Assembly: GCA_905221615.1 (NCBI GenBank)
Contig: CAJNDT010000133.1
Location: 235,321 to 299,320, forward strand
Direction: 5' to 3'
Source of the DNA: Symbiodinium sp. CCMP2592
Taxonomy: Eukaryota; Sar; Dinophyceae; Suessiales; Symbiodiniaceae
DNA length: 64,000 nt
Each line of letters begins with the position of its first letter. Positions within the stretch are counted from its first letter, which is position 1. The notes beneath the pieces are model-generated. The model did not search any database, had not been told where the DNA came from, and saw only the letters and a list, made by a program, of their open reading frames with translations. Below, piece after piece: positions 27,198-63,724 of the stretch. Position numbers and translations under genes: made by a program.

Positions 27198-29138
27198 TCA
27201 ACGCAGTAGGCTGCGCTGTGCCTCGCAGAGGCGAGGGGGGAAGGTGTTCTCCTCCCCTCGAAGTGAAACTGTATGCGAAGCAGACGCGAGCTGTGCAAGG
27301 CTGATGCGTACGCGTTCATCACTGCGGTGCTTAATAAAGGCAAGGCGTCCGCGGCTGAGAGCGTCAGCCCAGGTGTTCTTTTCGCCAGCCAAGTGTTCGA
27401 CCTGGAACTGGACACGGTGCAGGTGCGCCCAGGTGGCGGCGAGGCGCAGAAAAGTGCTGAGCGGTTCTGCTGTCGTAAACAGGCGGTTGACGCCACTCTC
27501 GGCAGAGGTGTTGTCGCTGGCGCTGGGAAGCACGAAACGCGTGTGTTTATGCCGAAGTAGGGCCCATGAACAATGGGCCAGCGCAAGCTGTGCCAATGCT
27601 TCGAAACAGGCTATGTAGCTTTGCATGGAACCGTGCAGTTGAGGCCATTCAGCGCGGACCTCTTCGGCTGTGAAGATCTCGCTATACCACACGAAGTGCG
27701 ATGAAGTGCTGAGCCAGCCGCCGATACCCATGCGGTCGGTGTCGGCGAAAGCATCTGACGCGCTCATGCAGGGCGCAACGGGAGGAGTGCGAAGGCTGCG
27801 AGGTTGCTCGTGCTTAAAACAGAGCTCTAGCCAGGCGAGGCAGAACTTGCTGTCTTGCTTGAGGTGAATTTCCGTGCGATTGGGGTCTGCGAGACGGACC
27901 CACTGGTGCTTGTGAGAAGGCGGCACGCGGGGCACGTCAGACTTAGAATGTATCTTGATGGATCCAACCTCAAGGAGCTGTGCATTGCGAGGCAGCCAGG
28001 ATCCGAGAGGCGTGGAAGAAAGCTTTGCGGTGCTATCAAGGCAATCGTAGAAAGACGCCCAGGCCTGCGGGGCGATGCTGTGAAGGGTTCCTGCACTGCT
28101 GTGCAAGTCTTTATAAAGGCATGACATGAAGGAGCGCATGTGCGGGCTCAGAGTGGTGGCCCAGTTAAGCAGGCCCAGGCACGCTTCCAAGTCCTTTTTG
28201 AGGATTTTGGATGCGGTGCGAAGCTTGCAGAGCTGCTGGCGCAGTTTTTCCAGCTTGCCCTGGACCAAGGCCACGGTTTCTGTGCGGAAACAAAAAGTCC
28301 AGCCGCACCAAGTGATTTGATCGCCGAGCTGTGCCTTTTTCCAGCTGATGGGTGCGTGCAGCGCGGCAAGCAGTGCAACTATGAGGGCGACCGGCTGGTC
28401 CAGCTTGTCACGCAGTAGCGTGGCCAGAATGTCGTCCACGTAGAGCCAGGCTTTATGCGGGTATTTGCAGAGCAGAGCATGCAGAATGCGCAGGATGAGG
28501 GATCCTGTGCGTTGCCACCAATATGCTGAAAAACGGGCGCCGAAGTGGCAGACTGTGTAATGATAAAGTTTATCTGCAATGCGGAAGAGCAGCGTGCCTT
28601 GCTCTGCGGGGCGAACTTTTTGCGCCTTGTGCGCCGCTTTGAAGTCCAACGAAAGGCCTTGCAGACGAGCGAAAGGGTTGGAGGCGAAGAAAGTGCGTTG
28701 CACGTCCAGGGCGCTTGGCATGGAGACACGCTCCGGGAGATGCACGGATGGGTTTAACCCACACACAGAGCTGTCGAGAACTAGGCGGGGATCTTTGCCG
28801 TCTGCGTGGACTATGTTGAGTTTCCCGATTGCGGTGCCGAGCGGCCAATGCTTTGCAGCGTCTTCTGCGGAGCCGTGGAAAGGTGCAACGTGTCCGGCAG
28901 AGATTTCTTGGTCAACCAGCTGCTGAAGCAGTGCAGGATCGCGTTCAGCGGCAGTCCAGTTGCCCGCACAGTGTTCAAGGCGGTGCGGGTCAAGGTCGGC
29001 AGACGTATCAATGTTTTGCGGGGCTGAAGGCCAGAGCCCGCTGGGCGGGAGCGGTGAGAAAGCGCCAGTGGGAACACCCTCCTTTAGAATGGGGGGCACC
29101 AGGCCTGTGTCAGGATCGTCAATGGCGCGAGCGAGCAT
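27198..29138 (-). CDS. reverse transcriptase-RNase H
   Basis: 646 codons from an ATG at 29,138, although homology-like sequence (EPGQPFRLEVLE) continues upstream in the same frame. The RT palm is clear: RLVLDSSVCGLNPSV, then DFKAAHKAQKV, then the catalytic YVDDIL. After a thumb-like region an RNase H fold follows: SDAFADTDRMGIGGW, a central Glu (CFEALAQL), SDNTSAESG, and the C-terminal AGEKNTWADALSRG. This layout and the last motif are typical of DIRS/Ngaro-like elements. The product would copy the element RNA in the nucleus or cytoplasm. The frame is intact; regulation is not visible. Confidence 0.85.
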   Translation of the reverse strand: MLARAIDDPDTGLVPPILKEGVPTGAFSPLPPSGLWPSAPQNIDTSADLDPHRLEHCAGNWTAAERDPALLQQLVDQEISAGHVAPFHGSAEDAAKHWPLGTAIGKLNIVHADGKDPRLVLDSSVCGLNPSVHLPERVSMPSALDVQRTFFASNPFARLQGLSLDFKAAHKAQKVRPAEQGTLLFRIADKLYHYTVCHFGARFSAYWWQRTGSLILRILHALLCKYPHKAWLYVDDILATLLRDKLDQPVALIVALLAALHAPISWKKAQLGDQITWCGWTFCFRTETVALVQGKLEKLRQQLCKLRTASKILKKDLEACLGLLNWATTLSPHMRSFMSCLYKDLHSSAGTLHSIAPQAWASFYDCLDSTAKLSSTPLGSWLPRNAQLLEVGSIKIHSKSDVPRVPPSHKHQWVRLADPNRTEIHLKQDSKFCLAWLELCFKHEQPRSLRTPPVAPCMSASDAFADTDRMGIGGWLSTSSHFVWYSEIFTAEEVRAEWPQLHGSMQSYIACFEALAQLALAHCSWALLRHKHTRFVLPSASDNTSAESGVNRLFTTAEPLSTFLRLAATWAHLHRVQFQVEHLAGEKNTWADALSRGRLAFIKHRSDERVRISLAQLASASHTVSLRGEENTFPPRLCEAQRSLLR

Positions 29139-29177
29139 CTCGAGGACCTCGAGGCGAAATGGCTGGCCTGGTTCTAT

Positions 29178-43404: not shown

Positions 43405-43789
43405 TCGACAAAGGCGAAGAGTTGTATTGGCCATACATCCAGTGGAATCAAGAACAGCGCACGGAAGAGGTGATCTCCACGGACCAGGCACGGCCATTGG
43501 AACATTCGCGACTACTGAGGAAACTGAATCACCTGCGGGACTCCATCACGCCGGTCACCACAAGATTGCGGAACAGCTGGAAACCGAGGTCTATCGTCTG
43601 GTTCTGGAAGTCGAAACGGTTGGGGAGGAAGCCCAGAACATTCACGAGTGGCTTCGTCTTCTTGCGAACTGCACGGTTTGGAAGCTGATCGGAGGCCGAT
43701 TTCGGAGGGAGCGATTGGGACGCTACTGGGGCAGTGAGACGAAGTGCTGATGTGGCTCCCGCTTCTTTTCGACTCCCTCGAAACTACAA

Positions 43790-44625
43790 GGCGCCAACTA
43801 TGACACTACAAAATCCACAGAATCTCTGTTATGCGAACTCGGTGGCTATCTCGCTTGCTTGGATGGGATATATATATATATATATATACCACAACTACAC
43901 TCATGCTGGCGGCAGGTGCTCTGGATGTCTGAGTGTTGTGCTTGGAGCTCGGATGTTACTTCTTACGAACTCTTTGCCATGGTTGATGATATTCGCTGAC
44001 TGGCCTCAGGCTCATGAGCAGCACGACGCTGCGGAATTTCTCACTCATTTCCTTGACAAGGCTACTCCGAGTGCTTTTACTGGTCTGTGGCAATCCCGAG
44101 CAGAACATGCGCATGGCATCCATGTTCAGGATCGTGGCTCACTGATGATTCCCTTGACTCTGGACAGGTTGGGCGCGGATCTTCAGACTTGCGTTGACAT
44201 GTGGGAAGGACAGTCGTATGTACATGCTCTATCTACTTTTTGGTCCTGACCATGGCCTTGTCTTGCAGCTTCATCGGTTTTTGCCTACGGACTCGGGTGC
44301 AGGCAAGGTCTTCACCAAGGTTGCAGTACGTCCAGGTCAATCGGTTGCAGTGCCAATGTTTGAGACTTCTGACTCCACGATTACTCGCATGGTCAATTGT
44401 CGACTGGCTTTTGTGATATATCACATTGGACCCACCATGCTCGCTGGTCATTACAAAACTGCGATATGTGTGCCTGGCGAAGTATTGGGGTTTCGTGGTA
44501 GCTAGAAATTTGTTATATGTAACGATGCCCAAAAGCCTTACCTGGCCACTGCAAATGATTATGCTGAGATTGAGACTGGCTGCTATCTGATTGGACTCTA
44601 TCGTCCTTCTACTCCGGGCGATGCA
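43790..44625 (+). pseudogene. ubiquitin-specific-protease-like domain
   Basis: Cys box: LQNPQNLCYANSVAISLAWM, with the N-x-x-N/Q-x-C-Y-x-N pattern of USP (peptidase C19) enzymes. Middle box: EQHDAAEFLTHFLDKATP, matching the conserved Q-x-D-A-x-E-F. His box: ITRMVNCRLAFVIYHIG then AGHYKTAICV. The domain ends with ICNDAQKP ... GCYLIGLYRPS after an in-frame TAG at 44,503. It has a frameshift near 44,200 and an (AT)n expansion coding YIYIYIY right after the Cys box. A USP would remove ubiquitin from proteins; its job in a LINE is unknown. Confidence 0.6.
43868..43889. repeat. (AT)n expansion inside the USP-like domain
   Basis: About ten AT units, in frame with the surrounding sense (encoding Tyr-Ile repeats), just after the Cys box. 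Confidence 0.85.
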
Positions 44626-51552: not shown

Positions 51553-54216
51553 ATGACAGAGATGGCCCATGGCTGGGCTGACTTACAGGAAGAGTTGCTT
51601 TCTTCTCAAGAGTCTCTGGCCGAGTTGTCAGAGATTGCAGATGCTTGCAGATCAGAGACATCAACTTCAGATTCTTTGCCTGACTGCAGTTTGTGGTGGG
51701 TGAACCAGATCAAATGTCATAGCAGTGGATATGAAAGGCCACTGCCACCAAAGCAAGCGATAACATTGCTGTCAGCTTGCTCGGCATCCTGCGCAGAGTG
51801 CATGGTGCTCAAGGCGCTGGGTCGGGCGGCAATTGCAGATTCTAGATTCTGGAGAGCAGGGCTGGGTTTGGGTGGCAGTGTGAATGTTTTATGATTCATA
51901 CGAGAGTCTGCAGGAAGCACTGCTCAGTAAACATGTCTCTGAACATCCATCTGTACATGCCACTTTCAGTTTCATGTCTTGACGCTGGCGACCTTTGTGG
52001 ACATTGACACGGTAATGATGCTTCAACCCTGCTGTGCTGCTGCTACTGGTACTGGTAACTGGTAGCTGATAGCCGATAGCTGCTACTCAAAGCTGCTGCT
52101 TGTTGGCACAGTAGCTCAGTAGTTGTAGCTGCTCACAGGTTGCTTTGTAGTACACAGTTAGTAAGATGGATAGTGATTGTTCTTGTTACTGCTACTGCGA
52201 CTGATCAATGACTTCAGGCTAGCGGCTTGTGACTAGTGAAAATAGTGTCTGACCCGTGACTAGTGACTAGTGACCAGAGTATAAACAACATGTACCAGCT
52301 TCACTCGACTCTGCGACTCTAGCTGGACCTGGACTTACTTGTACCGGCACCTTCCTAAGCCCCCTTTGACCTCTTGACCCTTTGGTGCTGCAGGCCTTGG
52401 GAATCCCCTTCACTTGCGTGAGCACGTCAGAGCCACAGAAGGCCTTCCGCGCTTTCCAGGCTGCAAATCCTGATTTCTGTATCCAGCACATGCATCATAC
52501 AATGGGAGATCAGACGATGGGTGCGGCTTGCAGTTTGCATCCTGAGAATGAGGAGTGCCTGATTCCGGAAAGCCCTTCTTTGGCAGTGTTCGGCACTCCA
52601 TGTCCCCCATACAGCATGTTTCGATGCAAAAGGGAGGTCGCAGGAAGTGTTCGCTCACACAGGGCATATGATGTGATGTTCAAAGACTCCATAGACTGGT
52701 TGCGGACTCATCAGCCAGCAGCTGCCATCGCTGAGCAAGTTGCCGGTTTCGCTGCTAGTGAGTCCAACGATGTCAGCGAAAGCCCCCTGGACAGGTCGGC
52801 TCCTCAGTCAGTTAAGTTCACTGCTGAGCTGCTGCTGCTGCTGCTACTGATACTGCTACAGTACAGTATCTCAGTAGCTGCTACTGCTGCAGTTGCTCCT
52901 GCTACAGTGCTAGAGCTGCTAAACTGCTAGAGTGCTGCTACAGTGCAACAATGTACTACAGTGCTACGGTTAGCTAGCCGCTACCGGTTAGCTGTGTTTA
53001 GCTTGAGTTTGGTTGAGGCTCGGGTTTCAGATGTTTGCTGACGGTGACAGTTCACAGTTCAGTCAGTACTGACAATTCTCAGTCCTCGTCACAGCTGTCA
53101 CTGTCAGAGTCAGCAAAATGCAGCAACTCGCCGCTACTCACTAGTCACTAGTCGTCATTAGTAACTAGTAAAAAGTACCAATGTTCTAGTAACTGTAACT
53201 CGTAGTAACTAGTGACTGGTGTCACGAGTGGCTGTCACTAGTGTTCACTTGTGATGATGGCTGCACGGCCACTGCGGCTACTGACTTCTGCGCTGTGGTG
53301 GCTACTCAGCTACCTCGCTGTGTTGCTAGCTGCTAGCTGAAAGCTGTCAAAAGGTCGCTAGTCATGCCTGTGTTATGTTTGGTTCTCCACCATCACGCAC
53401 TGTTCACGATGCTAGCTAGCTAGCTGCTGCTGACCATGACACAAGCTGGCACATATTTGATTAATTGCACTTAGTTGAGTTTTGCTGTTGGCGTCCACTT
53501 GTTTCTATTGATTCTAGTGACTAGTGACTGGTGTTTTTTTCGTAAATTCTAGTGATTCGAGTGAGCTTCCGATGACCTCTGCCAACATACTCACTCCAAT
53601 ACATCTCAACTGATAGCTCAGCGGCTGCTTGAAGCCAGCTTGCGAGTTCAACAACGACATAATGATTCACATAATGACATGGATGACATAGGAGGTGTCC
53701 AACCCCGCAAAGCTTCCAGAAACTGAACAAGCTCCACATCTTAGTCAGTCTTAGAGTCTTAGCTCAGCAGGTCAAAAGCCCAATTCCTTTCCATGCAGGT
53801 ACATGACTCTGCTTCGTGATGCTGGCTTTCCTCACGGCGGTTACCATGTCCACATCCAGCACATGGACATGAGCACATTTGTGCAAGTTTCGAGGCCAAG
53901 GACAGCCAGGGCTGCAGGTTAACGGTTAGTTAATAGTTAAAGGTTCAGTGCCATTATCATTATCATTATCAGTATATCAGTAACATCAGTATCATCCTAA
54001 GCTGATCATTAGCCACGCTGGAAGTCAACAAGCCTGCTGCTGCTAAGTTTGAAGGGCTGTGTGGTTTATACAGAGTCACTGAGTGGTGAGTAGTGACTAG
54101 TGAGACTAGTGAGCTGAGTAGTGAGCACTGACTATATTAACTGTTGTGTACTGGACACTCTGGGTTTCAGCGGCCTTTGGGTTGGCGAATACTCAGAAGT
54201 CTGAGTGTCTTGGCAG
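51553..54216 (+). CDS. C5-cytosine DNA methyltransferase, catalytic half (motifs I-VIII)
   Basis: Exons 51553-51813, 52394-52794, 53799-53917 and 54171-54216 join in phase. Exon 1 has ITLLSACSASCAECMVLK at the cofactor-binding (motif I) position. Exon 2 continues ALGIPFTCVSTSEPQKAF, then motif IV AVFGTPCPPYSMF with the catalytic Cys, then DVMFKDSIDWL and IAEQVAGF at the position of motif VI (normally ENV). Exon 3 gives RYMTLLRDAGFPHGGYHVHI and FVQVSRPR, the motif VII-VIII region. Exon 4 reads AAFGLANTQKSECLG. The first intron has a GC donor (AAG|GCGCTG) and the others GT. The enzyme would methylate cytosine in DNA in the nucleus. Motif I lacks the usual F-x-G-x-G, so activity is uncertain. 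Its C-terminal part is 9 kb downstream. Confidence 0.65.
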
Positions 54217-54219
54217 GTC

Positions 54220-54995
54220 CAGAGTCCAGGTACACCAGGTACAGGTATGGCAGGTAAGGTATGGTATCGGTACAGGTACAGTGCAGGTTTTCGGATATTC
54301 AGAGGAGAATGAGGGCTCCATAGTTCGACATTCTCCAGTTTCTACAGTGTAAATTGTACATTGTACATGGGTTCTCATGTTGTGCAGCGGTGCAGTGTCT
54401 GTGTGCGCCAGTGTGCGCATGTGGCCAATTGCTGTGTCACTGTGTGTGCAGGTGTGTGTGTGTGTGCCTGTGGGCCTGTGGCACTGTGCTGTAGCTGTAG
54501 CTGTGTGTAGCTGCAGCTGTGGCTCATCAGCTTGCTGAATGAAGGCCAGCTGAGCTCAGCTAGCCAATCAAGGCTTACCGGCATACCACAAGCCACAAGC
54601 TTGACTGCTGAGCATAACGGTATAACGAGCCTAACAGGGCCTAACAGGTACTCACACTTACACCTGACTGATTTCAGCAGTTAATGCTGTTATAGTGACT
54701 ATTATAGTGTTACTGATTACTTACTGAGTACTGGTAGTAACCGCAGTAACCCTGGTAGTAACTAATTTGTTAGCAATATAGTTATAAACATACTGAGTTT
54801 ACATAATGACATCGTGTCCCTGCTTCAAACGCTGCTGCTAATAACAAGCTGTTCATATGCAGGTGACTGTGAGTGAGTCCAGGTTCATGCTACTGCTATG
54901 AGGTTAAGTAGTCAAAGTAGTCGCACTACGTCTATCGTCCTTCACACTTCGAACTCAGTTGAGATGGGTCATGAATGATGATGGTTGGGCTTCTG
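54220..54995. other. intron-like, microrepeat-rich DNA
   Basis: GTGTGTG, GCTGTAGCTGTAG and AGGTAC words dominate. An exon linking 54,216 to 55,002 is needed for phase (its length should be 2 more than a multiple of 3) but I could not identify it. Confidence 0.4.
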
Positions 54996-55001
54996 TTGCA
55001 G

Positions 55002-58000
55002 AGCCTTTGCAGCCAGCTGCACCCCCGGCCGCCAAGCGAGCCCGGGGTAGACCGCGGAAGCCAGAGCAAGGTGTGGCAGCAACAACTTCCAGAGATTCCT
55101 GTGATTCCAGTGCTGTGCAGGGCCGTGGCGGCTACAGTCCTGGTTCAGTGGTTGATCGTGTGCTTGCAGTGGGAGGCAACATCTTAGGAAGACTTGGATC
55201 GTTATTTCAACGCAGGCTTTGGAATGCGTTGTGCAAACATGTTGCTGCTCCGGCCATCCCCGAAAGGAAGCCGCAAGACAACCCTGCTGCCTTTCTGGTA
55301 GAGTCGATGCCGCTTTTAAATATCTCGACACAGCAGAAGGTCCTGCCAAGAGCCGGCAACAAGGAGACTTTGAGCTTGGACGAGAAGCGCGTAGCCACTT
55401 GTTCGTTACTGTTTGCAGGCCAAATGGTGGGATTCATGATGGCAAGATGCTTGGAAGTAACCTCCCTTCCAAACTGTAACTGGAAATTGGTTGCTCTGCT
55501 GAAGCGCAGGAGATACGACGAAACACCGACTCGCATATCACTGCGGGAGAAGAGGAGTGTCAGGGCGTCCGAGAAAGAGTTTGGCAAGCAAAAAGTCACA
55601 ACAGAATGTGCCAAAGTCTTCCAGACTGAGCTTGGTTTGGGGCTTGTTTTGGCCAACAAGTCGTCAGGGCAAAGTTTGTTGATGCGGTTCACGATGCCCA
55701 CAATCATGAGCTGCGTCGACAGTGCTTCTGCGGAGAACGTGAAGCGCACACAGCTGGAGGCAGAGGCATTAATTGCATCCTTGGACGAGATCCAGAGCAA
55801 AGTTGGCCATGTCTTTTCGCTGCCTTGTACAGATCGGGCATCCTCCAACATAAAGGCTGAGAATGACATTGGGAGCCAAAGCGCAAGTGCTGTGAACTGC
55901 CACTTCCTGTGCCAGGTCCACAAAGCATCCCAAGTTCAGTCAAAACAATTTGACCATTGCGAGAGACATATATCCGGGCTTCTTCACTGCGCCCTGGCCA
56001 TGCGCGGGGCTGGGACCCGGGGTGAACTCCGGAAGATGCTCTTCGAAATCATCGAATCAAGGCTCAGCATTCACTTGGGTGAGGCACCACCCCAATATGC
56101 AGAGCATCGAAACTGTGTGTTGGACCTCTATGTCAATGGTAAGTACAACCAACATGGGAAATCTCCACAGAAGCGATTGGCATTGCAGAGATGCATCCTT
56201 TCATACTTCTTCCCAGGAAACATCCAGGATGAGAATGTCGTCGAATTCTATGTGAGGGAACCAACTTCGCGACAAGAGGTTCTTTCTTGGTACAAGCAAT
56301 GGGCCATCCCTATGCTGTTGCCGAGCGTTTGCCCGATCTACCCTAGGTCCAGATGGATAGGTGGTGAGTGCAGCTTGAACTGGGCAGGCCTGCTCTGCTC
56401 CTTTCACAACTTGTTGAAACCCTTGATGCTGAAGTTCGGAGCTCCTCGTGGATTTCCCGCCCCAGCAGAAGCACCCAGGACTTCAGCAACCTTGCACACA
56501 TTTCAAAGTGGCTGGGATTGTGTTGCAGTGCCTGCAGAGGTCCGGCCTGACGAGTCTCATGAGTCTGAGCATCAAACTGATGCACCTGATCTTGAAGCTG
56601 AAGGTTGGGCCAACTCAGTGGATTACAACCCTTTTCTGGCTGCCGACAGTGAGCGGGACTTGCTGGACAGGGCAACCGGCAATGTGGACTGGCAGCGCTT
56701 AAATGCATCAATGAAGCTTCGGGCCGCACGGTGGGCCGATCGTCCCGATGTTGGTGCTGCCCTCATCTGCATGAGGAGCTGCATGGAGCCGTGCCTCCAC
56801 CTGATGCACAGTTTGTTGGAGCTGGCATCCTTGAAATTCGACAGGAAACAGCAAAGTCTGGTGGCTCGAGGCAAAGTGCGTGACTACCGAGTTGTGGCAG
56901 TTGCAAACTTGACAGTGAGGGTCTTCCAAATGATCAATGGCAAGTTCCGTGACACAGTTCGAGCTTTGCCCTTGCAGCACATGACACGCAGGACCCGAGT
57001 TCTGCTTTTCAGGATGCTCTCGAGGGCAGGTGGTGGGATCAACATGCTCATGGGCCGCGACCAAGGATATCCCTTCAGGCTTTTTCATTTGCTCCTGTCA
57101 GGGCAGGTGGAGAAGATCTTTCAAGATCCTGTTTGCTTGTATGATGAGCTTACCACCAAACTGCTCATGAAGTTTCCAGATTCTAAAGCTTTGACATCGC
57201 TGGAGGGATCATCTGTCGTGGAAGCTCTTGCAGAGATGATTTCTGTGGACATCGCTGGAGTAGAAGCTCGACATGCTGCTGCTCGCAGAATCAACAGCAT
57301 TCGTTCATGCCAAGCTCACACGATGAGTTTCGAATCCTTATCCTCCTTGACAATCACACGAAGTCTGGTTAAACACCGCCTCGATTGGTTGGAAGCCAGG
57401 GGCCTTTTGCCTCCCAAGGAGAAAAGGAGAAGGCGGCGAGAGGCGAAGGAGAAAAAGTTCCATTGTGGTGGTGGGGCATGGAGAGCTTTTCTTCACCTGA
57501 AGAAGGGTGGCTTTGCCAAGAGCAAGGCCCTGAGTCCACTGTACCAGCAGATCAAATCTCAGGGTCTGCAAGAGTGGCAAGACTTGAAAGAGATTGGGAA
57601 GATGGGCACTGTGTCAAGCAGAGCCGGGCATGCCTCATTTGGCAAGAGGAAGTTTGCTGGCAAGAAGCAATTGCAAGCCATTGCTGCTCCCAAAGCCTTG
57701 GAGCAACAGCTATGTCGGGTGGCGCAGGCTTGCAGCCAGGAAGCTTTGCGAGACAAGGAGGATTGGCAGCAGACAGTGGCTAGTGTTGCAAAGCATGCAA
57801 GTGAAGAATGCGGCCGTCTTGTTTCGCTAGGCCATGCTGCAAATGATGGGGGGACGCCTGTGACCAATCCAGCAGCGCTGCTGGCCAAATCCATGGCGCC
57901 CTCGATGCTGCCTTTGTCTTTGTCTGGATCCATGCTTTCCAGAGGGCTCCCAGCTGCAGAGGTTCCAGACACTGAGGTGGATGGGTTGGATGGCTCAAAC

Positions 58001-58102
58001 TCCGGGTCCAAGCCATCTATGCTTTCTGTGGAGTGCCTACCTCCAGTGGCAGAACTTGTCAAGGACGGGATGGTTTCGGCCCCAAGTTCAAGCAGCCTGT
58101 AG
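55002..58102 (+). CDS. AT-hook protein of about 1,030 residues, possible transposase
   Basis: Largest frame in the window, entered after a CTGTTGCAG acceptor and ending TAG at 58,102; no ATG is needed if it is an internal exon. N-terminus: KRARGRPRKPE, an AT-hook for A/T-rich DNA. About 260-300 residues in: LPCTDRASSNIKAEND and NCHFLCQVHKASQVQ, a D ... C-x-x-H spacing reminiscent of hAT-type RNase H-fold transposases. Later: RWIGGECSLNWAGLLCSFHN, GVEARHAAARRINSIRS and a basic KEKRRRRREAKEKK. From memory, multi-copy dinoflagellate proteins share the RW-G ... HN-L and E-RHA-RR blocks. Transposase function is a hypothesis. It could also be a domain inserted into the methyltransferase. Confidence 0.6.
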
Positions 58103-58119
58103 GCTCTAGACTCTAGACT

Positions 58120-58150
<31 letters not shown>
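58120..58150. repeat. (GT)n microsatellite
   Basis: About fifteen GT units a few bases after the stop of the 1,030-residue frame. Confidence 0.95.
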
Positions 58151-58159
58151 TTATGGCTA

Positions 58160-58940
58160 CTTACTACAACCTGTCTTGGTTCAGTAACTGTAGCAACTGT
58201 AGCGCTGTAGCCAGTGTTTAGTCTCAGTGTGTAGGTGAGCCAGTGACTGCCAGTGGCAGAGGTTGACACCCTTCCCCCGACCTGAAACCTGAGCATATAG
58301 CAGGCAGCCATTCTCCGCCAATCACCAGTATGATCAGGACCCAACAGCTGAATAACTGGGACTAGTGACTAGTGACTAGTGGCTACTGAGCGACAATGAC
58401 CAGGACCTAGACTCCTCTACTCGACGTGGCAAACTCAGACTTGGACATACTTTGTCATCTTTTGCAGCCCACCTATCTTGGCGGCTACTGAACTGTGCTA
58501 CATAGATCTGATCTATCAGAATCTATCATCTATCAGCTATCAAAAGAGAGATTGACAGATTAACAATTGTTGACTGCTGATGGCTACCAGTGTAGACAAG
58601 AATGTCTACTAGTAGTTAGTAGAAAATCGTGATTGTATTGGTTGTATTGAATTTTATTGATTGTCGTGTGCCAAAATTGACTTAGCCGGACATAGCCATG
58701 GAGTCGCAGACAAGCAGGGTTTAGGGAGTGTCTGATACTCGTTAATCCATTGTTGAAAGCATTTGTTGAATCACCATCTGGGCTAGACGGCTAGAGTCGG
58801 CTAGAGTCGGCTAGCGGCTAGAGCGCTTGGCAGAGGTTTCTCTTGTTGTTGTTGTTGGTGGTGGTGCTGCTGCTGTTGCTGCACAGATCTAAACCCAATC
58901 CCCAACCTCTGACTCTACTTGATATCATTAAAATACAAAT
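58160..58940. other. intron-like microrepeat DNA
   Basis: ACTAGTGACTAGTGACTAGT, CTATCAGAATCTATCATCTATCA and CGGCTAGAGTCGGCTAG runs. No coding signal. Confidence 0.5.
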
Positions 58941-58951
58941 ACCTCCTCCAG

Positions 58952-59809
58952 CCCCTGAAGGAATTCTTCAGCACTTTGCCCAACAGAAGTGGCTTGCTCA
59001 AAGAGCTCGTGGAGGTCACCCAGTCTCAATCTGCAATGCGTCTGCACTGCGATGCCCCATCTCTGTCTGGGGTGCACAGGGGGCTGGACTTTCATGAGCA
59101 GGAATGTTGCAAAGTTGCAGAGTGTGTTTGTGGCAAGCACGTGACTGCCCAAAGGATTCATGCCAATCTGGTGTCACTTTTCCGCCCTTTCCTGCGGGTC
59201 AAGCCTGCAGCAAAAGCCAAGCCAGACGCCGACAGTGCTCGGCAAGGATCAAAGCCTGCAGTGCAGAAGGGGAAGAAGCCTGTCCCGCGGCTTTTCATGG
59301 AGCAAGGGCTTCTGGTGTTCAAGTTCACAAAGCTGCCGCCAGAGGGACAGATGCCGAGTTTTGACACAAGTGCAGGTTGGGACACAGTCTGCCAAGAACC
59401 TCTTGCGGATGCTGATCAGGACTCCGGACAAGGCGTGGAGCAATCCCACGTGGACGAAAGCATCTGGGTGCATGTTTCATATGCCAATTTTCGGGACTGG
59501 CACTTCAGCTTCCTCCTGTTGGATGAACAGCCTGAGTCCCAGGTAACAACAGATGGTCGGCAACTGACTGTGCTGCGAGTTCCGGAGCCCTCAATTTTCT
59601 TGCGGGACACTGTGGCATTCAAACAGAGATTTGATCTCAAGTTTGCTTGGAAGGCTGCGATGTATATCATCTTTGTTGACGACAGCGAGCTGGCTCCATT
59701 AGACATGGCGCCTGAGGTTGTTGAAGTGCTTCGGCTGGCCTCTGTTCCGGAGCTGCTTGTGTGGAAGGCTACTGTTGGTTGCAGCGAAGTGTGTTTTCAC
59801 ATGTGGTGA
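58952..59809 (+). CDS. 285-residue frame, probable exon
   Basis: Entered after a CCTCCTCCAG acceptor (PLKEFFSTLPNRSGLLKELV) and ending ...EVCFHMW TGA at 59,809. A basic linker KPAAKAKPDADSARQGSKPA and KKPVPR separates two ordered parts. HEQECCKVAECVCGKHVTAQ has four Cys and a His that could bind zinc; SIWVHVSYANFRDWHFSFLL and FAWKAAMYIIFVDDSELAPL look like a folded beta-rich domain. No family was recognised. It follows the AT-hook frame in the same direction and may be part of the same protein. Confidence 0.5.
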   Translation, partial: PLKEFFSTLPNRSGLLKELVEVTQSQSAMRLHCDAPSLSGVHRGLDFHEQECCKVAECVCGKHVTAQRIHANLVSLFRPFLRVKPAAKAKPDADSARQGSKPAVQKGKKPVPRLFMEQGLLVFKFTKLPPEGQMPSFDTSAGWDTVCQEPLADADQDSGQGVEQSHVDESIWVHVSYANFRDWHFSFLLLDEQPESQVTTDGRQLTVLRVPEPSIFLRDTVAFKQRFDLKFAWKAAMYIIFVDDSELAPLDMAPEVVEVLRLASVPELLVWKATVGCSEVCFHMW

Positions 59810-59814
59810 TCTCT

Positions 59815-60228
59815 TGTTGTTTCAGTGTCCAGTTATTAGACTGACTAGTTTCCGCTGCCACTAGTAGTTACATTAGTTATCATAAGTCACAGTCATTACC
59901 CAGTTAGTCAGTTAGTCACTGTTAGTTAAGTTAGTTAGCTAGGTCGCTGGGTTAGTTAGCTCTTATCAGCACAGCTGAGTAGCTAGCAGCTAGCAGTTAT
60001 GTCATTTTTGTTACCGCAACAGTCATAACATTATGGAAGCAGATGCATAGGCTGCAAGTAGAGTCAAGTGCGCATGGAGGGAGTAAGGCTCGGTAATAAA
60101 TTGAGACTAAATCACTAAGTCACTAAGTCACTAAGTGGCTCAGAAATACAATTTTCCGGTATTCAATAGTCAATAGTCAGGAGCGATAGTTTGATAAACA
60201 TGCTTCAATTCTGCTGTTTTTTGCCTTG
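59815..60228. other. intron-like microrepeat DNA
   Basis: GTTAGTTAGCTAGG, CACTAAGTCACTAAGTCACT and TAGCAGCTAGCAG words. No coding signal. Confidence 0.5.
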
Positions 60229-60231
60229 CAG

Positions 60232-61169
60232 TCTCTGATCAGGGTGCGATGGAGGAAAAGAGACTGCAGAAGCTGTATGGCACGAAGAAGCGCAGTGGTG
60301 GAAAACCGAGAAAAAGAAAGAACAAGAGTTCATCTTCTCGACCTTTGAAGAAGCCGCGCCAGCTTGGAGCAGCTGCTGCTGCACCTGACGATGCTGAAGC
60401 TGCTGATGGTGCCGACAATGCCGCTGCAGCCGAGGACAGTGAAGGAACTGATTCCCAGGCTTCTTCGGAGGCCGAGGCATTGTCCGATGATGATGCTCCA
60501 GTCGCTCCATGGATTCTCAGACAGATTGATGTGGTAGAGGCTGCCAAGGCTGCCAAAGCCAAGGCCAAGCCAAAGAGTTTGGCCCAGAAGATCAGCAAAT
60601 GGCTGCCGAAGCGTGGGCCCAGATTTGGTGGCGACACTGGAGGGGGAGATGGGCCTGCAGGGCCAGCTGCATCAGCAGAACCGGCATCGTCGTCGACCGA
60701 CCCCATGCCAGCTCGTGCAAATCCTCCTCCAGCCGAATCTGCAGAAGATGGCGATGAAGCCCTCCAAGTGGCAACTTCTGGCAGGAAGCGGTCCTACCTC
60801 GAGCAAACGTGTGATATTGATGGTTTTGGTTCCATTCACTTCTATCCACCAGCCCAAAACTTTGTTGCTTTCTGCCGCCAAAAAGGCCATGAAGACTGCA
60901 GAAAATCCAGGACATGCAAGCCATCAACTTTACCTGCCCGTGCAGGGCAGGGCAGACCTCTTGGACTGCTGGCTCAGTGGCTTTTCTGCGGCAAGGACCA
61001 TTCCACTCGAGAGGCTCACCAAGCTCCTAAGCTGTTGTCATCCTTTACACAAGCTGAACGATTGTCGGCCCGGCAACGCTTCTTGAAGCTCCCTGGTGCA
61101 GAGGCGATGGCCCGCAACGAGCGGGTGAGAAGGGAGGATGAAGCTGAAGAGCCGGATCGAGTTCCATAA
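60232..61169 (+). CDS. Lys/Ala/acid-rich frame of about 310 residues, probable exon
   Basis: Acceptor TTGCCTTGCAG, then SDQGAMEEKRLQKLYGTKKR and a basic stretch (RKRKNKSSSSRPLKKPRQLG), an Ala/Asp/Glu-rich disordered region, KAAKAKAKPKSLAQKISKWL, and an ordered C-terminus: SYLEQTCDIDGFGSIHFY, GQGRPLGLLAQWLFCGKD and ERLSARQRFLKLPGAEAM. It ends EEPDRVP TAA. The GRPLG-L--WL and R--FL-LPGAEA blocks are ones I recall from repetitive dinoflagellate proteins. An internal ATG at 60,249 could start a separate protein. Confidence 0.52.
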
Positions 61170-61378
61170 AGCGGCTCCCATGACAACATCAGATGCTCGG
61201 TACGCGTGTTGCAGTGCTTTGCCCATGAAGAGAAAAAAAGCAACTCAGCACTGCCAATTTTGCCAGATTCAGTGATGCTCAGCACTTGCCAAACTAGCAG
61301 CTAGCCGGGAATCCCCTTTGCATATGCAATCCCACCAATCCACTCTCAGATTAGATCAGATATGTGTTCCGGCAGGAT

Positions 61379-62494
61379 CTACATGGTGCTGCTGAGGAAG
61401 GACATCTACTCTGCAGATGATGCGACCAAGCTGAGTTGCATCATGCAGGCGCTTTGGGCTGCAGTGATTGCAGTGAATATGAAAGTTGCCAGCTGTTTGA
61501 GCATGCAGCAGGTGGTTAAAGTTTCGGCCATCATGTCAGTTGCAACATGAGTCTGAGTACAGTGTACAGTGTAAAGCAAAGGCTAAGTCGGCTAAGTCGG
61601 TTGAGGGATGTTAATCTGCTAATCAGTGTGTTTGCTGCATATGAGGAGATCTTGGATGGCCAAAAGGAGGTGCCTCCAGCGTCTATTCGTGAGCTTATGA
61701 TGCAGCCTGACCATCCACAATATGAGAAGAACCTGGAGATTCTTGCAAAGCAAGGGGCGAAGAAGGCCTGGCAAGCTGGGATTGGGTGGGCATGTCAAGG
61801 GTCACAATTTCTGTCACATTTCCTGCTGATTCACATTTCCCGTCACATTTTTCGAACCATGGATTTTCCAGTGCTTTCAGGGCCACATTTTCGGAGCTTT
61901 TTTTTCACATTTGATTCACATTTGATTCACATTTTTTTCACATTTTTTTTCACATTTTTTTCACATTTTTTTTGCATTTTCCCTAGGGAGTGACCACTTT
62001 TCGGCCCAGGCCAGGGCGGGCTGGCATGGGGGGTCTGGGGGCGGTGAACGGGGGGGGCCGGGCACTCCCCGCACCAGCCCAGGGGCCCAGGCCTGGGGCC
62101 CCGGCCAGGGCCAAGGCAACGTGAGGATTGGGGCCGGGCCGGGCGTGGGGTCTGTATTCTGGAGCTGTGGCCTGGGGTGGTTGGGGCGCCTTGCTTTGAG
62201 ATGTTGAGGGAGGGGGCACAGGTTATGGGTGCGGGCCCGGGGCTTTGGGGCCCAAACTTTGGGGTGCACAGGTTGCTTACTGACTGATAAGTGGTTGGGG
62301 ACTTTCCGGGCACAAAAGGTTGCTTATGCTGATGGGTGGTTTAGGCTTCAGGGTTGCAGAACAGCTCCATACAGAGTTTGATTTGGGTCCCTTTGGGGCC
62401 TGCATTGTCTTGAGGAAGCTTAGCGGCTTAGCTGCGTTGCGTTGTTTGTTCAGTCTTGCAGCTTGAGTTCTTGGAAGCGTACAAGCAAGGCCAG
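61379..62494 (+). CDS. three small exons leading into the methyltransferase C-terminus
   Basis: Exon near 61,379-61,452 (after TTCCGGCAG) reads IYMVLLRKDIYSADDATKLS-CIMQ up to a GC donor. Exon 61627-61765 (after AATCAG) reads VFAAYEEILDGQKEVPPASI and RELMMQPDHPQYEKNLEILA-KQGAKK up to a GC donor. Exon 62462-62494 (after CTTGCAG) reads LEFLEAYKQGQ up to a GC donor and joins in phase to the exon at 63,146. The join between the first and second is not in phase as drawn, so one boundary may be wrong. The region would form the variable target-recognition part of the enzyme. Confidence 0.42.
61795..61982 (-). repeat. TCACATTT array
   Basis: About twelve TCACATTT words, opposite in orientation to the AAATGTGA array at 46.2-46.6 kb, ending in T-rich CACATTTTTTTT runs. 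Confidence 0.85.
61984..62275. other. very GC-rich block
   Basis: GGGGGCC/CCGGGC-rich segment, proline-rich in minus-strand frames, sharply different from the AT-richer introns around it. No coding motif. Confidence 0.6.
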
Positions 62495-62710
62495 GCAGAC
62501 TGTGACTATCAGATCATGGATGATCATAGTTGTTCATGTTGTGCTGCATGTTTCCCTTGGGCCTTGGGCTGATTTGCTTCGGCATGCGTTGTCAGAGTCT
62601 GTCGGGGTTTGCCAGAAGTCAATGTAGGAATGTAGGCTGTGCAGGTCAGTGCTTTGTTGAACAGATGTGCATGCCCAAGAGTCCAAGTCCAAGAGCCAAA
62701 AATCAATAAT

Positions 62711-62761
62711 TTAGAAGCTGCCCGCACCCTGTAATAGTGCCATAAGGATTATATTAATATT

Positions 62762-62800
<39 letters not shown>

Positions 62801-62851
62801 GGCCCTATTGTATTCCTATTATACCACTATTACAGGGTGGGGGCAGCTTCT
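62711..62851. mobile_element. MITE with AT core and 9-10 bp target duplication
   Basis: Terminal inverted repeats of about 27 bp: TTAGAAGCTGCCCGCACCCT then GTAATAGTG at the left and CACTATTACAGGGTGGGGGC then AGCTTCT at the right. AATCAATAAT flanks both sides (62,701-62,710 and 62,852-62,861). The core is (AT)n. A 9-10 bp target duplication suggests mobilisation by a Mutator-like transposase, by analogy. It lies in the last intron of the methyltransferase. Confidence 0.8.
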
Positions 62852-63145
62852 AATCAATAATCTATCAATATAAACGACAATCATTAATCATTAATCCCAT
62901 TCACCAAAATTTCCTGGCCCTATTGAACTATTGATAATGATTACTTATAATGTCCAATACTTTCTCCAAATAGTATTATGTTAGTATGTTAAATCTTCTT
63001 ATTGCCATTGTAATGTACCGCATTGGCGCCGCATTGGCACTAGTCGCTGTTCACTATTCAACACGGTCACCAAAGCCTTTAGCAGTCACTCGGGTAATTG
63101 GGCAATTGGGGGACTTCATAGTTCCAAGCAGATTCTTCTGTGCAG

Positions 63146-63724
63146 GATGCCCGCACTCGTGGCGACAGCGGGGGCTTCCCTGCCTGGAAGGCACAGGCGG
63201 TTCGGTGGAGCGAAGCCATTGGAGTTGATGTTGCTAAGCACCGTGTTTGGACAAGTCGGCGAGACTTTGTGGGACGGGGTGTTCCACAGAATGAGCGGGT
63301 GCAAACCATGCTTGATCTGGTGTGTCTCCAGAAGTGGTCTGAGCATCCAAACCGTGGGTACCTTCGTGATGTTGTTTGGCCTGACCTCATGTGCAATGTG
63401 TTCCTGGACTGGAGCCAAAATCCAGCTCGCAGGGCTTATTCAGGAAAGAATGGAGAGATGCGCTGTTTGACTACATCCTCCCAACTCTACTCCTTTGAAG
63501 CCGACCGGGCACTCTTTCCGATTGAGTACATGAGGCTCCAGGGATGGGGCTTTGACATTGCTATCCCTGAGCAGTGTGCAGGGAAGATGCGAGAGCTGTC
63601 AGGGCAAGGCATGTCGCTGCCGTGCCTCGGAGTTGTGATTTGGGCAGTGTATCTGCTGAAGGGCCTCCCGTCTTGTGCCGTTCATGCTGATGATGATGGT
63701 GATTGGGAGCTTGATTTGCGCTGA
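63146..63724 (+). CDS. C5-cytosine DNA methyltransferase, C-terminal exon (motifs IX-X)
   Basis: After a TGTGCAG acceptor the frame reads DARTRGDSGGFPAWKAQAVR, then a region typical of target recognition, then GEMRCLTTSSQLYSFEADRA and LFPIEYMRLQGW, the motif IX type block, and MRELSGQGMSLPCLGVVIWA-VYLL, the motif X block that closes the cofactor pocket. It ends HADDDGDWELDLR TGA. It fits only as the C-terminal part of the enzyme whose motifs I-VIII are at 51.5-54.2 kb on the same strand. Confidence 0.7.
   Translation, partial: DARTRGDSGGFPAWKAQAVRWSEAIGVDVAKHRVWTSRRDFVGRGVPQNERVQTMLDLVCLQKWSEHPNRGYLRDVVWPDLMCNVFLDWSQNPARRAYSGKNGEMRCLTTSSQLYSFEADRALFPIEYMRLQGWGFDIAIPEQCAGKMRELSGQGMSLPCLGVVIWAVYLLKGLPSCAVHADDDGDWELDLR

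Follow-up and report, generated by a model that had tools for sequence, protein, structure and literature searches.

A putative hAT/Hermes-like gene inside the motif VIII intron of a repeated cytosine methyltransferase gene in Symbiodinium

A 64,000-nt stretch of the genome of the coral-symbiotic alga Symbiodinium sp. CCMP2592 (assembly GCA_905221615.1, contig CAJNDT010000133.1, positions 235,321 to 299,320 of the forward strand; C133:235321-299320 among our numbered contigs, and hereafter the window) was analysed, and the locus at 51,553-63,724 within it is best explained as a composite resembling a transposon, in which two genes interlock on the same strand: a C5 cytosine methyltransferase (MTase) gene and a hAT/Hermes-like gene, A-B-C, lying in an intron of its motif VIII. 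We give this reading a rough probability of 0.58. It draws on sequence-based evidence, namely the exon structure by homology, the common intron position, the single nested gene, the transposase fold and triad, and the conserved order of the parts. The features of the locus are listed below, and the motif names are our presumed assignments to the MTase exon regions.

51553-51813, +: MTase exon 1, with ATG and the motif I region (ITLLSACSASCAECMVLK)
52394-52794, +: MTase exon 2, with motif IV (GTPCPPYS) and a motif VI-like EQV
53799-53900, +: MTase exon 3, with the first part of motif VIII, ending in VSRPR at a GA donor in phase 2
53901-61375, +: MTase intron 3 (7,475 nt), containing gene A-B-C; from exon joining and acceptor ranking
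54971-58072, +: nested exon A, with an AT-hook-like stretch and a predicted hAT/Hermes-like D-D-E core (modelled part 55388-57370)
58961-59777, +: nested exon B, with the A-B join taken after gene model P0002
60232-61169, +: nested exon C, with a basic N-terminal part, a conserved GRPLGLLAQWL part and the stop codon
61376-61511, +: MTase exon 4, with the remainder of motif VIII (IYMVLLRKD)
61646-61765, +: MTase exon 5, from exon joining and gene model P0001
63146-63724, +: MTase exon 6, with motifs IX and X and the stop

The methyltransferase gene and its long intron

Judged by homology, the MTase gene is composed of six exons, which give 532 open codons when joined; a GC donor at 61448 offers a possible earlier end of exon 4, and the resulting form of 511 codons was used as the query in the searches. 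The 511-aa protein scored 35.7 bits against PF00145 (profile positions 57-305), above the curated cut-off of 22 bits and with both halves covered, in keeping with the C5-MTase motifs reported by an earlier, sequence-only reading of this DNA. As single frames, exon 2 reached 16.1 bits and the last exon gave no match, while exons 2 and 3 together scored 18.9 bits. The score rose to 28.5 bits when exon 4 was added, suggesting that the residues beyond the 7.5-kb gap are read by the profile as the rest of motif VIII. As an acceptor control, exons 2 and 3 were joined to each of the 328 open in-phase AG dinucleotides (743 AG in total) between exons 3 and 6 and scored with a profile built from four uninterrupted C5-MTases from the same genome; position 61376 ranked first of the 328 with 31.6 bits, the runner-up reaching 27.7 bits and exons 2 and 3 alone 19.4 bits. 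When five further C5-MTase loci from this genome were compared, four (L002, L006, L008 and L007, the last of which has stops) aligned continuously across the junction and one (L001) did not. The joins 61511|61646 and 61765|63146 are identical in P0001, a gene model made by others on the near copy in C4921, and the donors of the MTase exons are, in order, GC, GT, GA, GT and GC. The catalytic PC of motif IV is present in the window (GTPCPPYS) and in the copies on C1224 (GTPCNPFS) and C335 (GTPCPPFS). Among solved structures, none was matched by sequence with exon 6 or the joined MTase; P0001 was the only relative obtained in word-limited searches of protein databases, and no MTase relative was found in viral contigs by a pattern-based search, which reaches close relatives only.

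The sequence-only reading had described an MTase split into halves on one strand, and its exons at 51.55-53.90 kb and 63146-63724 hold, with the first half ending at 53900 instead of 54.22 kb. A fourth N-terminal exon at 54.17-54.22 kb, which it had counted among four in-phase exons, was rejected, since exon 3 joins 61376 in phase and makes it superfluous. Its placement of the insert in the target-recognition interval between motifs VIII and IX was also rejected: the MTase is broken by intron 3 inside motif VIII, so the target-recognition part comes after the split. The three long frames that it saw between the halves are real, and the small exons 61376-61511 and 61646-61765 are part of the MTase gene.

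The nested gene and its transposase-like core

The three frames between the MTase halves are 1064, 298 and 323 codons long from stop to stop. Joined as exons A, B and C, they give 1,618 codons with the sole stop at the end, the join following P0002, which links A to B, and alternative joins being possible. On sequence and structure prediction, the intron holds a single second gene with its own start and stop, whose product of some 1,618 residues includes a stretch resembling an AT-hook and a D-D-E core of hAT/Hermes type. Parts like A, B and C stand within the single chain of P0005 (1,603 aa), and P0006 (1,026 aa, Symbiodinium sp. KB8) carries the end of A followed by B and C. An ATG just upstream of the conserved N-terminus of A was observed in six of the nine loci printed (window, C1224, C1844, C5108, C335 and C1062).

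The model of A predicts an RNase-H-like core with a Hermes-like helical insertion, and approximately 359 residues were aligned with Hermes structures. The D-D-E triad and a C..H pair are kept in 14 of the 14 rows that carry a residue at the site concerned, residues of A being matched to Hermes by motifs and order, not by coordinates. The fold predicted for exon A is that of hAT transposases, and its D-D-E triad is conserved. A first structure model of A, made from six sequences, was useless (predicted local distance difference test, pLDDT, 33.8). No solved structure was matched by sequence with A1, and three rows obtained for A2 (TBP at E 0.003, eIF5 at E 1.1) were taken for low-complexity chance and rejected; nor did a pattern-based search of viral contigs yield a relative of A. 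No reverse transcriptase match was found by Pfam in the frames of 51.5-63.7 kb, in P0001-P0006 or among the A2 relatives, which agrees with the sequence-only description of an arrangement free of it. Within frame A, a GGGAWRAF region at 57410-57680 recalls an HMG box, for which the Pfam HMG_box match was weak (2 of 16 relatives, best E 0.13).

Genomic copies, mobility and rival explanations

A total of 1,098,105,373 bases in 5,383 contigs was searched, giving at least 53 matches for A, at least 84 for the MTase and at least 85 for C. Matches were grouped by contig, strand and gaps of <15 kb, near-identical contigs (possible alleles or assembly duplicates) each being counted. The matches listed formed 98 clusters. 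Of these, 37 hold one sort of part (C in 28, MTase-C in 6, MTase-N in 3), and the other 61 combine at least two sorts. Among these listed matches, all 61 multi-part clusters keep the order MTase-N, A, C, MTase-C, bearing out the sequence-only reading's expectation of other copies arranged alike; 38 of 41 MTase-N clusters and 31 of 37 MTase-C clusters also have A or C, and 33 of 42 A clusters also have an MTase half. Near-identical copies include the groups C335/C1112/C2254/C3691, C935/C2117/C596/C1312/C1977/C546 and C628/C397/C3524/C813/C2202. The end of exon 3 is identical in place and phase in the window, C1224 and C269, from which the exon 3 profile was built and which match by construction, and in C1844/C5031, C5351 and C4963/C5296/C5108, which were not used for it. 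The profile gave no match at C5089 or in the available C5373 flank and a weak one at C335 (E 0.79). The acceptor side was read in the window, C1224 and C335. From these sequences, the intron position is common to separate sequence groups. At least 124 PF00145 matches were also counted in the genome, many of them almost identical copies in a single frame, the pattern expected of retrotransposons that carry methyltransferases.

For the composite, we infer transcription, splicing, mobility, both enzyme activities and self-methylation. A single pre-mRNA would span both genes; removal of the 7.5-kb intron would join VSRPR to IYMVLLRKD and give the MTase, while processing at the nested gene's own 5′ acceptor, probably by spliced-leader trans-splicing, would give the transposase. 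Such trans-splicing is usual in dinoflagellates. The transposase would then mobilise the putative unit, and the MTase would mark the unit's DNA or its target. A stricter version, in which this is a DNA transposon family whose transposase and MTase are mutually exclusive on one transcript, the MTase catalytic domain being formed only once the transposase gene has been spliced from motif VIII and a single splicing choice switching the element between moving and methylating, is doubtful in our estimate. The sequence-only reading had offered three options, and a transposon with its own methyltransferase fits best: the predicted hAT fold, the triad, the failure to find a reverse transcriptase among the parts and the copies of like order agree with it, while mobility, on which the option of an element landed in an intron depends as well, is conjectural.

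Several observations weigh against the composite. Inverted-repeat searches of five loci yielded no convincing terminal repeats, and the ends of the putative unit were not located; in hAT elements the terminal repeats are short and inverted, and the target duplications are 5-8 bp long. The near-identical window copies share flanks, with no transposition event visible. No Pfam hAT family matched the 16 members of A2 (at E 1) or P0001-P0006, and Foldseek with the A model was not significant on its own, with no hit at E 0.001 among PDB entries or viral models. Three of the nine loci have no clear ATG at the start of A (absent in C5373, unclear in C409 and C5351), and stops occur in parts of C269, C5089 and C5373. 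The joined C1224 MTase, with one join guessed, scored 20.6 bits against PF00145 (first half 14.1), below the cut-off of 22. The usual motif VI triplet of C5-MTases is ENV, and EQV stands in the window, C1224 and C335, with E and V kept and N replaced; motif I of the window (LSACSASCAE) deviates from that of C335 (LSACSGGLTE). In C4921, a one-base insertion lies nine codons ahead of the MTase stop.

The near copies were compared further. Over the length that was read, C529, C2924 and C4921 carry the same flanks as the window, partly rearranged in C4921, and so are alleles or segmental copies. A match on C275 was considered as an empty site and rejected, as it stops at the contig end. Compared with C4921, substitutions reach 1.06% (17/1,599) in MTase exons, 0.60% (29/4,856) in A-B-C exons, 1.5% in introns and 3.1% upstream, with synonymous to non-synonymous counts of 6/11 for the MTase and 12/17 for A-B-C; these sequences suggest mild selective constraint at most on both. 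Only two of the 47 indels fall in coding exons, both insertions in C4921: three bases in C, in frame, and the single base in the MTase (63699), which alters the MTase tail of C4921. Short inverted-repeat elements were also observed, one in the window:

62711-62853, no strand: MITE-like (miniature inverted-repeat transposable element) element in MTase intron 5, with 35-nt inverted arms flanking an AT-rich palindrome

Another lies downstream of the MTase in C2924 (L024:7272-7390) and is absent there in C4921, which bears a different one near that site, suggesting recent small insertions.

The strongest rival, tentative in our view, is a host MTase family whose intron has harboured a domesticated hAT-derived gene for a long time, the pair having spread by segmental duplication instead of its own transposition. 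The long common flanks and the failure to find terminal repeats in the five loci favour it, as do the exon-rich host DNA methyltransferase (DNMT) genes and intron-nested genes known in the lineage from the available parts of the literature; the D-D-E triad in 14 of 14 rows and the many dispersed, diverged copies weigh somewhat against it.

It is improbable that one giant protein is encoded, with A, B and C as an enlarged targeting module between the MTase halves, a further option of the sequence-only reading. P0001 does fuse C with MTase exons 4-6, order and strand are conserved, and A has its AT-hook-like stretch. However, P0001 omits the motif VIII residues IYMVLLRK, whereas the phase-2 junction rejoins motif VIII without the insert. 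The stop of C falls at the same position, just past an acidic stretch, in all three loci read (window, C1224 and C335), P0005 and P0006 ending likewise; in-frame stops stand just ahead of the A start in several loci, besides the ATG in six of nine, and P0002 and P0003 model A without the MTase.

An assembly artefact or pseudogene cluster is far less probable still. An N run in C2924 (L024:8214-8501) is followed by a repeated piece of the same locus, probably a scaffolding error, C275 ends within a match, and some copies have stops; yet the order is kept in diverged copies that lie on long contigs, all nine exons of the window copy are open, and only two of its 47 indels against C4921, as noted above, fall in coding exons. 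Least probable is that an unrelated element inserted once, into this MTase gene alone. The remaining option of the sequence-only reading, an element landed in an intron, is right about the intron, which carries a gene of its own, but a single local event is wrong because diverged copies at many loci share the intron and nesting.

Known systems and neighbouring features

Symbiodinium is described as having DNMTs in LINE-type (long interspersed nuclear element) and DIRS-type retrotransposons, long exon-rich DNMT genes and a genome with most CGs methylated, and de Mendoza et al. raise, as a speculation, a contribution to this methylation by methyltransferases borne on retrotransposons (PMC5890265, in the part available). 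As far as that part goes, SymbioLINE-Dnmt and SymbioDIRS-Dnmt3 are, like the present locus, repeated Symbiodinium units with a C5 methyltransferase, but their DNMT frame is free of introns and accompanied by a reverse transcriptase, whereas a predicted DDE-transposase fold, no reverse transcriptase among the parts found, and a six-exon MTase are seen here. The exon-rich DNMT genes are likewise long multi-exon C5-MTases, and a nested transposase gene is not mentioned for them in that part. With hAT transposases such as Hermes, A has in common the predicted fold over about 359 residues, the triad and the C..H pair; it differs in having no Pfam hAT match, ends not located, the extra B and C parts and an MTase gene around it. 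Fungal DNA transposons, including hAT, carry TET/JBP dioxygenases (PMC12730594, in the part available), and are similar in pairing a DNA transposon, or a transposon-like unit here, with an enzyme acting on DNA methylation; TET/JBP oxidises 5-methylcytosine instead of making it, and its genes are described there as neighbours, not as intron-nested. In Polarella glacialis, 4,898 and 3,359 intron-nested genes were predicted with full-length transcript support (PMC7245778, in the part available). These are complete genes in introns, as here, but with transcripts, and the present case is one host-guest pair recurring in many diverged copies.

Among the literature listings and article passages covered, no methyltransferase-transposase nest in dinoflagellates was found. 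Epigenetic cargo on a transposon-like unit is already known, and the interlocked layout appears to be the new feature, because a repeated transposase-in-MTase-intron nest did not turn up in that literature. If the composite reading is true, it would provide a second, DNA-element route for mobile methyltransferases in Symbiodinium beside retrotransposons, and an example from nature of one transcript shared, through nesting, by two enzymes. As P0001 and P0002 illustrate, automatic gene models can wrongly split or fuse nested genes.

Elsewhere in the window, a frame at 43689-44249 (+) with NLCYANSVAISLAW recalls a ubiquitin-specific protease box and has no Pfam match at E 0.01. A reverse-transcriptase-like frame with YVDD at 27198-29177 (-), for which RVT_1 scored 25.7 bits, below the cut-off of 29.6, perhaps belongs to a DIRS- or LTR-type (long terminal repeat) element separate from the MTase/A-B-C locus.
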